NCBI RefSeq assembly: GCF_028292925.1
Contig: NZ_JAQGLK010000130.1
Location: 1-33,333, forward strand
Length of the DNA stretch: 33,333 nt
Direction of reading: 5' to 3'
Source of the DNA: Sphingomonas bacterium
GTDB lineage: Bacteria; Pseudomonadota; Alphaproteobacteria; Sphingomonadales; Sphingomonadaceae
A program made the position numbers and the translations under genes. This document shows, in pieces, positions 20,843 through 25,173 of the stretch (the stretch's first letter is position 1; each line of letters opens with the position of its first letter). Below the pieces are notes generated by a model. That model was not told the origin of the DNA. It ran no database searches and saw only the letters and a program-made list of their open reading frames with translations.

Positions 20843-23080
20843 ATGACCGCCATCACCCCCCAGATCGTCGCCGAACACGGGCTGAGCCCGGACGAATATC
20901 AGCGCGTGCTCCGCGCGCTCGGCCGGGACCCGAACCTCACGGAACTCGGCATATTCTCGGTGATGTGGTCCGAACATTGCTCCTACAAGTCGAGCCGGAT
21001 CCACCTGAAGAAGCTGCCGACCACCGGCCCCCAGGTAATCTGCGGCCCCGGCGAGAATGCCGGCGTGATCGACATCGGCCTGGGGCCGGACGGCAAGCCG
21101 CAGGCCGCCATCTTCAAGATGGAGAGCCACAACCACCCCAGCTATATCGAGCCGTACCAGGGCGCAGCCACCGGGGTCGGCGGCATCCTGCGCGACGTGT
21201 TCACGATGGGCGCTCGGCCGGTCGCCAATCTCAACGCGCTGCGCTTCGGCCGGCCCGACCACCCGAAGATGCGCCACCTGATCGCGGGTGTCGTCCACGG
21301 CATCGGCGGCTACGGCAACTGCGTCGGCGTGCCGACGGTCGGCGGCGAGGTCAATTTCCACCCGGCCTATGACGGCAACATCCTGGTCAATGCGATGACC
21401 GTGGGCGTGGCCGACGTCGACCGTATCTTCTATTCGGCCGCGTCGGGCGTCGGCAACTCGATCGTCTACGTCGGATCGAAGACCGGGCGCGACGGCATCC
21501 ACGGCGCGACGATGGCCTCCGCCGACTTCTCCGAGGATTCGGAGGAAAAGCGCCCGACCGTGCAGGTCGGCGATCCGTTCACCGAAAAGCTGCTGATCGA
21601 GGCATGCCTGGAACTGATGGCCTCCGATGCGATCGTCGCGATCCAGGACATGGGCGCCGCCGGCCTGACCTCCTCCTCGGTCGAGATGGCGAGCAAGGGC
21701 GGTGTCGGCATCGAGCTCGACATGAATGCCGTCCCCTGCCGCGAAGCCGGCATGACGCCCTACGAAATGATGCTGAGCGAAAGCCAGGAGCGGATGCTCA
21801 TGGTGCTCAAGCCCGGCCGCGAGGATTTCGCCGAGGCCATCTTCCGCAAGTGGGAACTCGACTTCGCGGTGATCGGCCGCGTTACCGACACCGGCCGCAT
21901 GGTGCTGACGTTCGACGGTGCCACGGTGTGCGACATTCCGCTCGGCCCGCTGGCGGACGATGCGCCGCTCTACGATCGGCCGGCGATTTCCCCGGCCGAG
22001 TATCGGGTCTGGGCCAACGTGCCGCCGCTCGGCGACATTCCAGAACCTTCAGATGCGGCTGCCGATCTGGTGCGGCTGATGGGATCGCCCGATCTCGCCT
22101 CCCGCCGCTGGATCTGGGAACAGTATGATACCCAGGTCGGCGCCGACACGGTGCAGCGGCCGGGCGGCGACGCTGCGGTCGTCCGCGTCCACGGCACGGA
22201 AAAGGCGCTCGCGATCACCACCGATTGCACCCCGCGCTACTGCTTCGCCGATCCGTATGAAGGCGGCAAGCAGGCCATCGCTGAGGCCTACCGCAACCTT
22301 TCCGCGGTGGGCGCCACCCCGCTGGCCGTCACCAATTGCCTCAACTTCGCCAACCCGCAGCGGCCCGAGATCATGGCGCAGCTCGTCGGCTGCCTGGACG
22401 GCATGGGGGATGCCTGCCGCGCGTTCGACTTCCCGATCGTCAGCGGCAACGTGTCGCTCTACAACGAGAGCAAGGCCACCGGCGGGGGCAGCGCGATCCT
22501 GCCGACCCCGGCGATCGGCGGCGTCGGCCTGCTGGCCGACTGGCGCACATCAGCCACCATCGCGTTCAAGCAGGACGGCGACGATATCTGGCTGATCGGC
22601 GATTGGCCGGGGCACCTCGGCCAGTCGATCTGGCTGCGGGAGATTGCCGGACGCGAGGCGGGGCCGCCGCCGCCGGTCGATCTCGATCTCGAACGCCGCC
22701 ACGGCGAATTCGTCCGGCAGGCGATCGCAGCGGGCTGGATCGGAGCCGCGCACGACATTGCCGACGGCGGGCTGCTCGTCGCGCTGGCAGAGATGGCGTT
22801 GGCCGGCAATCTCGGGCTGCGGCTCGATCGCGATGTGCCGCTGACCGCCGCTGCGCTGTTCGGTGAGGATCAGGCGCGGTACGTGGTGACCACCGGCAAC
22901 TCGGATCCGCTCGTTCGCGCGATGGGCGCGGCCGGAATCCGGCACCGTTTCCTCGGTTCGGTCACGTCCGCCGCATCGGGCATCGGCTACGGCGCGAACA
23001 GCATAGACCTGGCTGTGCTACGGCAGGCACATGAGGAATTCCTGCCGCGGTTGATGGGCGCCGACGCCGCACTCGCCTGA
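20843..23080 (+). CDS. purL: Phosphoribosylformylglycinamidine synthase subunit PurL
   Basis: PurL is the ATP-using synthetase subunit that, with PurQ (glutaminase) and PurS, converts FGAR to FGAM in purine synthesis. At 745 residues it is the small form, not the about 1300-residue fused gammaproteobacterial enzyme. Motifs in order: [42 protein letters not shown], the paired glycine-rich motifs of the duplicated AIR-synthetase fold ([13 protein letters not shown] in the first half, [17 protein letters not shown] in the second) and [11 protein letters not shown]. The start MTAITPQIV at 20843 fits the family; an open frame from 20792 lies in the terminator. purQ and purS are not in the window. 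Confidence 0.97.
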
Positions 23081-23101
23081 TGCCTCGCACCCGGACGACC
23101 G

Positions 23102-23138
23102 AGAAGGCCCCGCTGCCAGTCAGGCAGGGAAGCCTTCT
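23102..23138. terminator. Hairpin between convergent purL and hemerythrin gene, likely bidirectional terminator
   Basis: Outer arms AGAAGGC (23102-23108) and GCCTTCT (23132-23138) enclose inner arms CTGCC (23113-23117) and GGCAG (23123-23127). The only short T-containing tail is CTTCTT on the plus strand. It lies 22 nt after each gene's stop. Confidence 0.6.
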
Positions 23139-23159
23139 TGCCGGCCGATGATACCGCGA

Positions 23160-23813
23160 TCAGGCGAGCTTGAACGCTTCCTTGTTCGCCGCGGCGGTGA
23201 TCGCCTTGTTCTTGGCGTCCGAAAGCTTGGCGTGGAAGGGCGGGAAGATCTCGTTCTCCTCTTCCGCGATATGCTTGTCGAGCTCCGCGCGCAGCGCGGC
23301 GACCTTGTCCAGGAACACCGGCGAGCTCTTCTCGAGGTTCGTGAGTTCGTACAGATACTGCTTCACGTAGCCATGCTCGTGGTTGAGCTTATCGGCATCC
23401 TGCGGGTCCCCGGCTTCCCGCAGCGCCGGATAGACCACCATCTCTTCCATGAAGGCGTGCTTGGCCAGCGCATGCTTGATCTGCATCAGCAGGGTGGCGC
23501 GCTTGGCGGTGTTCTTGTCGGTCGTCTTGGCCATCGCGTCCATCAACAGCAAGGTCGCCTTGTGCTCGGCCTTGATCGCCGCGAACCAGTCGCCGGTCAT
23601 CGCGCTCGGCGCCTGTACCGCCGCCTTGCGGCCCAGATTGGCGGCCAGCCCGGCGAACACACCCACCGCGGCTACGCCCAGCACGGCGGCGGTGCTGCCT
23701 CCGAAGCCGGCTTTATCGGTCGCAGCTGCCGGGGATGCCGGCTTCGGCGTCGGCGCCTTGCGGGCCCTCGGCTTGGTATCGGCCTTGCTGTCGTCGTGCG
23801 TGGGGCTCGCCAT
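23160..23813 (-). CDS. Hemerythrin HHE-domain protein with N-terminal membrane segment
   Basis: The 217-residue protein has a basic Lys/Pro/Ala tail (1-35), a hydrophobic span (about 40-60, STAAVLGVAAVGVFAGLAANL) and a four-helix hemerythrin-like domain (about 75-195). Likely di-iron ligands are H84 (AEHKATL), H119 and E123 (HAFMEEMVVYPAL), H145/H147 (HEHGYV), and H181 and E185 (HIAEEENEIF). Such proteins bind O2 or NO or sense iron/oxidative stress; the exact role is unknown. The start ATG at 23813 has a GAGGA site; longer frames have none. A GGAAC-N16-GGTT element lies 36 bp upstream, the pattern of EcfG general-stress promoters in alphaproteobacteria. Divergent from the DUF418 gene, convergent with purL. 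Confidence 0.85.
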   Translation of the reverse strand: MASPTHDDSKADTKPRARKAPTPKPASPAAATDKAGFGGSTAAVLGVAAVGVFAGLAANLGRKAAVQAPSAMTGDWFAAIKAEHKATLLLMDAMAKTTDKNTAKRATLLMQIKHALAKHAFMEEMVVYPALREAGDPQDADKLNHEHGYVKQYLYELTNLEKSSPVFLDKVAALRAELDKHIAEEENEIFPPFHAKLSDAKNKAITAAANKEAFKLA

Positions 23814-23848
23814 CGTGCTGGTCCTCGGTCGCTGTCTCGTCCGGCCTA

Positions 23849-23873
23849 AACCGCTCGAAACACGGGCGGTTCC
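23849..23873 (-). promoter_or_regulatory. Candidate EcfG (general stress sigma factor) promoter for the hemerythrin gene
   Basis: The minus strand has GGAAC (23873-23869), 16 bp, then GGTT (23852-23849). The alphaproteobacterial EcfG consensus is GGAAC-N16/17-CGTT, so only one base of the -10 differs. The distance to the ATG leaves a leader of about 30 nt. Confidence 0.5.
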
Positions 23874-23910
23874 GCATCGCGCTTGACCCGCCCCGCGCCG
23901 CGCCACAGGG

Positions 23911-25173
23911 ATGCCGCGCATGCCCGCTCCATCCCGCCTGATCGCGCTCGACGTGCTGCGGGGGGTGGCCGTGATGGGCATTCTGCTGATGAATGTGGCC
24001 GGCTTCGGGCTGCCGCAGGCGGCGTACCTCAATCCCGCGGCCTATGGCGGATCGACTGGCGCGGATCTCGCCGTCTGGGCCATCGGCTTCGTGTTGATCG
24101 ACGGCAAGATGCGCGCCTTGTTCTCGCTGCTGTTCGGGGCTGGCATGGTGCTGGTGATCGAACGTGCGGACGCGGCCGGGCAGGATGGCGCGACGGTCCA
24201 CCTTCGCCGAATGGCTGCGCTGCTGGCGGTCGGCGCGGCCCATGCCTACCTGATCTGGTCCGGCGACATCCTGATCCCCTACGCGCTCGTCGGCACGCTT
24301 GCGCTGGCGCACGTCCGGCGCAGCAGCCGCGAACTGGTCGTTATCGCGCTGTTCCTGTTGGTGGCCCAATGGCTGTTCCTCTGGTCGCTCGTCGGCGGGC
24401 TCGGCACCCTCCGCGAGGCGGCCGCAGCGGCCGACGCGACGGAGGGGGCAGTGCAGGCGTGGCGCGGCGTTGCGGACCAGATCGGCATCCCCAGCCCCGC
24501 CGCTATCAGCCGCGAACTGGCGACGTTTCGCGGGGATTATGCCGGCATCCTGCGTGATCGGCTCGGCCACGCCGCGACGCCGTTCCTGCAACTGATCGAT
24601 GTCGGGGCGGAGACCCTGGCGCTCATGCTGCTCGGTGCAGCCGGGCTGCGCAGCGGGTTCCTGACCGGCGGCTGGGCGGCGGCCACGTATTGGCGCATTG
24701 TCATCGCCGCATACGGCATCGGCCTGCCCGCACTGGCCCTGATCGCCGCGGGAACGATCCGCTCCGGCTTCGACGAGGTCGTCACCGTGCAAGCGGCGAC
24801 GCTGTACGCGGCGCCTTTTCGTGTCGTGGTAATGCTCGGCCATGCCGCCCTGCTGCTGCTCTGGATCAGGCTCTCGCCGACGTTCCGGCTCGTCACCCGC
24901 ATCGCCGCGGTGGGGCGGGCGGCGTTCAGCAACTATCTGGCCACCAGCATCGTGATGACGACGTTGTTCTACGGCTATGGCCTGGGGCTGTTCGGACACC
25001 TTTCGCGGGCGCAACTCTACCTCATCGTGCCGCCGGTGTGGATCGCGATGCTGGCGTGGAGCAAGCCGTGGCTCGCGCGCTACTGCTTCGGGCCGTTCGA
25101 ATGGCTCTGGCGATCGATCGCGCGCTGGCAACTACAGCCGTTCCGTCGGCCGATCGAGAGTATTGAGAGTTAG
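23911..25173 (+). CDS. DUF418 domain inner-membrane protein
   Basis: A 420-residue polytopic protein of the DUF418 (YeiB-like) family. It begins with the diagnostic RLIALDVLRGVAVMGILLMNV, followed by KMRALFSLLFGAGMVLV, and ends with the C-terminal DUF418 block: VGRAAFSNYLATSIVMTTLFYGYGLGLFG, then PFEWLWRS at the extreme end. About ten hydrophobic spans are visible. The family is related to heparan-alpha-glucosaminide acetyltransferase-type membrane proteins, and the biochemical function is unknown. Start is 23911, or ATG 23920 which has AGGG nine bases upstream. Divergent from the hemerythrin gene; the bfd promoter overlaps its last codons. Confidence 0.85.
   Translation: MPRMPAPSRLIALDVLRGVAVMGILLMNVAGFGLPQAAYLNPAAYGGSTGADLAVWAIGFVLIDGKMRALFSLLFGAGMVLVIERADAAGQDGATVHLRRMAALLAVGAAHAYLIWSGDILIPYALVGTLALAHVRRSSRELVVIALFLLVAQWLFLWSLVGGLGTLREAAAAADATEGAVQAWRGVADQIGIPSPAAISRELATFRGDYAGILRDRLGHAATPFLQLIDVGAETLALMLLGAAGLRSGFLTGGWAAATYWRIVIAAYGIGLPALALIAAGTIRSGFDEVVTVQAATLYAAPFRVVVMLGHAALLLLWIRLSPTFRLVTRIAAVGRAAFSNYLATSIVMTTLFYGYGLGLFGHLSRAQLYLIVPPVWIAMLAWSKPWLARYCFGPFEWLWRSIARWQLQPFRRPIESIES

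Follow-up and report, generated by a model that had tools for sequence, protein, structure and literature searches.

We found that a gene in a Sphingomonas contig (NCBI RefSeq assembly GCF_028292925.1, contig NZ_JAQGLK010000130.1) encodes a hemerythrin-like (HHE) protein that belongs to a conserved, probably membrane-anchored family and is preceded by a promoter box that looks like those of the general stress response. The whole stretch that was analyzed comprises 33,333 nucleotides and is referred to here as the window. The gene (positions 23,160 to 23,813, minus strand, stop codon included) specifies 217 amino acids. Its start agrees with that of other members in the alignment, including the nearest relative found, a protein of 75% identity from a Sphingomonas metagenome genome (L004). 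The role that we favor, with a probability of roughly one half, is that of a di-iron HHE protein which is made in the general stress response, is held at the inner membrane, and handles peroxide, NO, O2, or iron. Comparison across related loci indicates that the promoter box, the span and linker, and the positions of the putative ligands are conserved, and that the family occupies a single lineage. We infer that the gene is under EcfG control in the cell, that the protein inserts into the membrane and binds iron, that its helices pair, and what chemistry it performs. As far as sequence can tell, the finding is real, and the main reading of the initial annotation, a stress-induced O2-, NO-, or iron-binding protein held at the membrane, is right.

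For many targets of the general stress response in alphaproteobacteria, no role is known. Of the top EcfG-regulated genes tabulated for S. melonis Fr1, a sizeable share are called hypothetical (PMC6599016), and a hemerythrin spot has been reported for Sphingobium (PMC5591006). Among the open-access literature matches listed, no report linked hemerythrin to EcfG, PhyR, SigT, RpoE2, or the general stress response. An anchored HHE protein that is conserved and has a strict promoter footprint would give this response a concrete, testable output.

A promoter box conserved across related loci

The initial annotation placed a GGAAC-N16-GGTT box 36 bp upstream of the start codon. The box, which can equally be written GGAAC-N17-GTT, is present by pattern match at positions 23,873 to 23,849 (minus strand), recurs in related loci, and is separated from the ATG (23,813) by 35 nt, so that the distance needed correction by one nucleotide. 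It is followed by a short leader (23,814 to 23,848, minus strand) in which a GAGGA stretch resembling a ribosome-binding site was seen by eye; the initial annotation estimated a 5' end near 23,842 on the same strand. On its other side, a divergent reading frame starts at 23,911, so the box sits between that frame and the HHE gene. No RNA element from Rfam matched positions 23,000 to 24,000 at the gathering threshold. An inverted repeat, AACCGC...GCGGTT, was noticed by eye in the box of the window and is absent from those boxes of relatives that were looked at.

Taken from sequence matches, a single box is by itself weak evidence. The window contains three matches, compared to 0.88 expected, and three were reached in 7 of 100 shuffles. 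The pattern is also common in the genome of origin, with 109 matches compared to 79 for the reversed pattern, which speaks for the view that the box is a chance match and the gene lies outside the stress regulon. The box becomes strong evidence because it is conserved across related loci. In the first set of 28 loci, 18 carry the box at exactly 17 nt (with 16 to 17 nt allowed), whereas 300 permuted motifs average 0.18 loci and never exceed 3. A pooled set joined these 28 loci to 19 usable, more distant loci added from whole-genome searches. Here 29 of the 47 have the box with 17 or 18 nt spacing; they comprise 21 of the original 28 loci and 8 of the 19 that were added. Among the controls on the same 47 loci, downstream regions and the reversed pattern gave one match each and the opposite strand gave five, three of which overlap the box itself. 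The 300 permuted motifs reached a mean of 0.51 on the 47 loci. The top two, present in 16 and 13 loci, are the same sites one base off (CGGAA-N-GTT and GGAAC-N-TTG, respectively), the next (GAACG-N-TTG, four loci) is also a shifted copy as judged from its letters, and the remainder reach three loci at most. All 29 boxes lie 17 to 63 nt upstream of an in-frame ATG, and 27 of them within 24 to 40 nt. The strict box is absent in 18 of the 47 loci, which speaks for chance; a one-mismatch version occurs in eight of those and could itself be a chance match. Given the number of loci with this spacing, the narrow placement before the ATG, and the low counts of the permuted motifs once shifted copies are set aside, we consider it extremely improbable that the box is accidental, and this cross-species comparison supports the EcfG-type promoter that was originally claimed.

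The 3' half of the box reads CGTT in 17 of the 29 loci, GGTT in 10, and TGTT in 2, and the letters of the spacer vary between species. Through the shifted control motifs, a C was seen before GGAAC in 16 of the 47 loci and a G after GTT in 13. Upstream of L022, L024, L029, L083, and L096 there are also boxes on the opposite strand, perhaps serving a divergent neighbor. L003 has no box upstream of its ATG. Several decisions define these counts. L031, a partial match that lacks the linker, and L032, which does not belong to the family, were left out of the promoter and alignment sets, and L088 (no box) and L097 (box) fall outside the 47 since they were missed by the linker pattern. L090 was kept with a mislocated linker and is therefore scored as a miss in both the box and GxxxG counts, and L019, whose box at 18 nt lies just beyond the 450-nt limit, is likewise scored as a miss. 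L071, L073, L074, L075, and L080 share their end residues with L009, L004, L006, L005, and L016, respectively, and L078 is the window gene; none of these was counted again.

The EcfG motif of S. melonis Fr1 is given as GGAAC-N17-20-GTT, with an enrichment in the 100 bp next to gene starts (PMC6599016), and that of Sphingopyxis granuli as GGAAC-N16-CGTT with a flexible -10 element (PMC7083833). By the S. melonis Fr1 motif, an EcfG-type promoter lies close before the HHE gene. The box found before the gene of the relative from S. melonis AS2.3 (L023) did not turn up when the regulon paper on S. melonis Fr1 was term-searched in its main text. The genome of the window also holds nepR, PhyR-like, and sigma-factor genes together: a nepR match over cut-off (C199:67408-67497), a PhyR-like frame beside it that was recognized by eye (L033:355-1149), and, next to this frame, a sigma factor with a sigma-70 region 2 match of 54.8 bits (C199:65682-65873). 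We take this sigma factor to be EcfG because of its place beside nepR and the PhyR-like gene. An EcfG-type box also precedes nepR (C199:67163-67187). Under stress, PhyR would take NepR off EcfG, and the freed EcfG would transcribe the HHE gene from the box at 23,849 to 23,873 as a single-gene unit. Among the 28 loci compared, no conserved operon or neighbor was found; once the HHE gene and any overlapping frames are set aside, the largest neighbor groups comprise 7 of the 28, and the neighbor genes of the window are common to L004 and L005 only.

We also asked how often such boxes accompany other HHE genes. The strict box occurs in 10 of 88 other alphaproteobacterial HHE loci, compared to a mean of 0.76 for 300 permuted motifs, the highest of which reaches 8 and may be a shifted copy of the box. 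The 88 loci consist of 28 of 29 new loci (L130, which is anchored, was left out) and 60 among the matches listed. Because of this excess over the permuted mean, we conclude from the sequence matches that HHE proteins recur near EcfG-type boxes, though not as a rule. The idea that HHE genes are a general part of the stress regulon was rejected in that form, as it holds only partly. The box-bearing loci are L126, L129, L131, L133, L135, L155, L163, L166, L167, and L170; L155 and the distant anchored L103 are one gene, and L131 and L133 encode Lys-rich tails with no span. The genome of the window encodes a second, unanchored HHE protein that lacks the span (L002:1345-1905, C109), and its gene has a canonical box, GGAAC...CGTT (C109:19019-19043), 23 nt upstream of a GTG start. 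A third HHE protein in this genome has no box.

Span, linker, and putative ligands of the anchored family

The Hemerythrin/HHE domain (PF01814) was matched at residues 79 to 191 with 62.8 bits (cut-off 25.3), and no other Pfam domain exceeded its cut-off in the window protein. The domain (23,241 to 23,579, minus strand) contains six putative di-iron ligands, H84, H119, E123, H147, H181, and E185 (window-protein numbering), which together with Y128 are invariant in 45 of 45 aligned anchored relatives. It is preceded by a hydrophobic Gly/Ala-rich span at residues 35 to 61 (23,631 to 23,711, minus strand), a charge-free stretch of 27 residues that includes a GxxxG motif (G51 and G55) and is supported by hydropathy, by conservation, and by a helix of low to moderate confidence in both structure models. 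Between span and domain lies a conserved linker, residues 62 to 76 (23,586 to 23,630, minus strand), whose R-x4-Q...W pattern (R62, Q67, and W76) is kept in all 45 relatives. The frame of L024 is broken, and it was left out of alignment A1; alignment A2 was made without L017, L019, L024, L028, and L029.

The N-terminal tail (residues 1 to 34; 23,712 to 23,813, minus strand) contains seven K/R residues and has a net charge of +3. Within the anchored family it is variable: some members have a long basic tail, many have a short one, and three have an acidic one. Thus, of the two features that had been described as fused to the HHE domain, the hydrophobic span is conserved across species and the Lys/Pro tail is not, and we rejected the tail as a functional element. 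The acidic tails of L017, L019, and L028 are long (95 to 115 residues) and alike in the three, and a Pfam scan of those in L017 and L019 returned no match.

The comparison indicates that the hydrophobic span is a trait of the family. In each of 27 aligned relatives the hydropathy maximum falls in the span, with a 19-residue Kyte-Doolittle (KD19) value of 1.56 to 2.05 compared to 0.13 to 1.04 elsewhere in the same proteins. A GxxxG motif is present in 43 of 47 spans, compared to 20.4 for shuffled spans. The matches to the window protein that are over cut-off or of low E-value begin after the span, and on this ground the family marked by span, linker, and stress promoter has no name in the libraries searched (Pfam and NCBIfam).

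Whether the span crosses the membrane was weighed against the view that the protein is soluble or surface-bound and that the Gly/Ala helix makes oligomers. That view draws on an insertion energy of 0.3 to 2.6 kcal/mol, which is marginal in many members, on positive charges that lie on both sides of the span, and on the modest helix confidence in the models. In the model of the window protein, the HHE domain is confident (block means of at least 94 for residues 81 to 210) and the span helix is poorly supported (45 to 62). The model of a short-tailed relative, based on 45 rows, has a mean pLDDT of 90.0 and contains one helix, residues 8 to 41, that takes in both span and linker (block means 67 to 75). 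Against a soluble protein, the 19-residue hydropathy is at least 1.6 in 25 of 27 relatives and always forms the peak of the protein, and a charge-free stretch of 18 to 27 residues is present in all 27. Hydropathy and both models agree with a predicted membrane-crossing helix, and we regard a soluble or surface-bound protein as very unlikely. The K/R counts are about equal on the two sides of the span, and therefore do not decide which side of the membrane the HHE domain faces. Known bacterial HHE proteins are cytoplasmic, and for this reason our guess is that the domain would be cytoplasmic.

The favored product would hence be a hemerythrin-like di-iron protein anchored to the inner membrane by one Gly/Ala-rich helix. 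The GxxxG motif suggests that these helices may pair within the membrane. The di-iron site would most likely remove peroxide or NO, or buffer O2 or iron, and the anchor would place this chemistry close to the respiratory chain and the membrane lipids. A different use of the same parts would be a membrane iron buffer, a sensor of iron, O2, or redox state, or a modulator of the stress response that passes its signal or iron to a partner through the R-x4-Q...W linker. The linker residues are conserved as strongly as the ligands, which fits such a use; HHE domains are O2 and redox sensors elsewhere (PMC9388753), and the mycobacterial HHE protein MsmHr is described as inhibiting the SigF-dependent peroxide response (PMC4295536). 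However, a partner is not apparent from either the locus, where no neighbor gene is conserved beyond the nearest relatives, or the window protein, which has no second Pfam domain over cut-off, and we judge this use to be rather unlikely. We only tentatively entertain a broader proposal, which we also doubt, in which the stress-induced, membrane-tethered di-iron proteins of a single alphaproteobacterial lineage use R-x4-Q...W to connect iron site and helix. The membrane would then be the place where signals from O2, NO, peroxide, or iron, or else bound ribosomes, are dealt with, as a new output of the stress response.

Distribution and origin of the anchored family

Full-length members, with at least 173 bits and a match starting before or in the span, were found in 27 of 119 genomes of the bacterial family. 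Another 19 of those genomes had a match of 75 bits or less that started at the linker or later. At the order level, 4 of 60 genomes matched at E ≤ 1e-25, all four from the same family, compared to none of 46 from other families. At the class level, 6 of 289 genomes matched at E ≤ 1e-16. Two of these six, L102 and L103, come from other families. In both, the HHE domain follows a hydrophobic stretch, and a box lies upstream of an in-frame ATG, at 43 and 26 nt, respectively. Their linker differs, with LPP in place of KAA. The gene of the sphingomonad family also occurs in L017 and L025, the records of which bear the titles Microvirga sp. SRT01 and Arthrobacter sp. TPD3018 and may be misnamed.

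In a tree built from the HHE domain only, the 45 anchored proteins form one clade (support 99/92), with L102 and L103 beside it (support 94/84). Since the anchored proteins group together on the HHE domain alone, the membrane anchor may well have arisen once, a reading of the tree that is qualified by long branches elsewhere and by the choice of members with a profile that includes the span.

Comparison with known systems

YqjD of Escherichia coli is said to park ribosomes at the membrane in stressed cells. A comparable brake on translation or division can be imagined for the window protein, in which the HHE domain would bind ribosomes or FtsZ as PA2171 does and the anchor would park them in stressed cells. 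Among NCBIfam models, the window protein matches best that of the PA2171 family of ribosome-binding persister proteins (NF053874), which all 27 members scanned also match; some members have long basic tails. PA2171 of Pseudomonas aeruginosa is described as binding ribosomes and FtsZ and repressing translation (PMC13041383). However, what is shared is the HHE domain; the match covers residues 80 to 208 of the window protein only and scores 58.7 bits compared to a cut-off of 190. Unanchored HHE proteins match the same model (51.5, 27.7, and 80.3 bits), so the match says little beyond "HHE protein," and we rejected membership in the PA2171 family on both counts. In addition, a basic tail is not a constant feature of the family, three members having an acidic one, and the invariant ligand positions would be needless for a pure binding role. 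A PA2171-like brake is thus a possible but unlikely reading, and not one that we favor over a di-iron protein acting at the membrane.

The RIC/YtfE proteins of iron-sulfur repair (TIGR03652) share a di-iron HHE bundle with the window protein and 22 of 27 members match the model, but the match of the window protein is weak, with 27.8 bits compared to a cut-off of 204.7, which places it outside that family. RIC proteins are soluble. Most HHE proteins are soluble as a rule, as the initial annotation stated, but HHE domains are known in chemotaxis receptors (DcrH), so the statement is fair as a rule and has exceptions. DcrH-type receptors have an HHE domain in a membrane protein, and the HHE domain of DcrH is among the structural matches, with a Z score of 13.0. 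In DcrH, this domain is part of a large chemotaxis receptor, whereas in the window family one helix and the HHE domain make up the whole conserved protein. In L136, L154, and L174, HHE matches end long hydrophobic frames that, by eye, may be metal-transporting ATPases.

Control by a stress sigma factor and a single membrane anchor are found together in YqjD, which like ElaB is a DUF883 protein, but the anchor of ElaB and YqjD is C-terminal and neither is known to have an HHE domain. The window protein has no Pfam match to DUF883, and the genome of the window has one match under cut-off (16.1 bits). ElaB of E. coli resembles the window protein in the same two respects, control by a stress sigma factor and a single membrane anchor (PMC6389858). 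MsmHr of Mycobacterium smegmatis, likened here by its description only, is an HHE protein tied to the stress sigma factor SigF; it inhibits a sigma-factor response, whereas the window gene is the presumed target of one (PMC4295536).

The best match among solved structures is the di-iron hemerythrin-like protein (HLP) of M. kansasii (6q09; Z 17.4, rmsd 1.9 over 141 residues; Foldseek E 1.6e-3), a helical-bundle match that speaks to fold rather than activity, the tool warning that helical bundles score high. This protein is reported to act as an NO peroxidase and, weakly, as a catalase, and its iron ligands are four His, two Glu, and one Tyr (PMC8913304). In the sequence match, H119, E123, H147, H181, and E185 of the window protein, five of the six His/Glu positions of the Rv2633c-type mycobacterial HLP, align with the same residues of HLP, and so does Tyr128. 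H84 lies outside the match and agrees by place only, and Tyr128 would be a candidate ligand. The two proteins differ in that they share approximately 21% identity and that HLP, described as a monomer of the HHE bundle (PMC8913304), lacks the span and linker.
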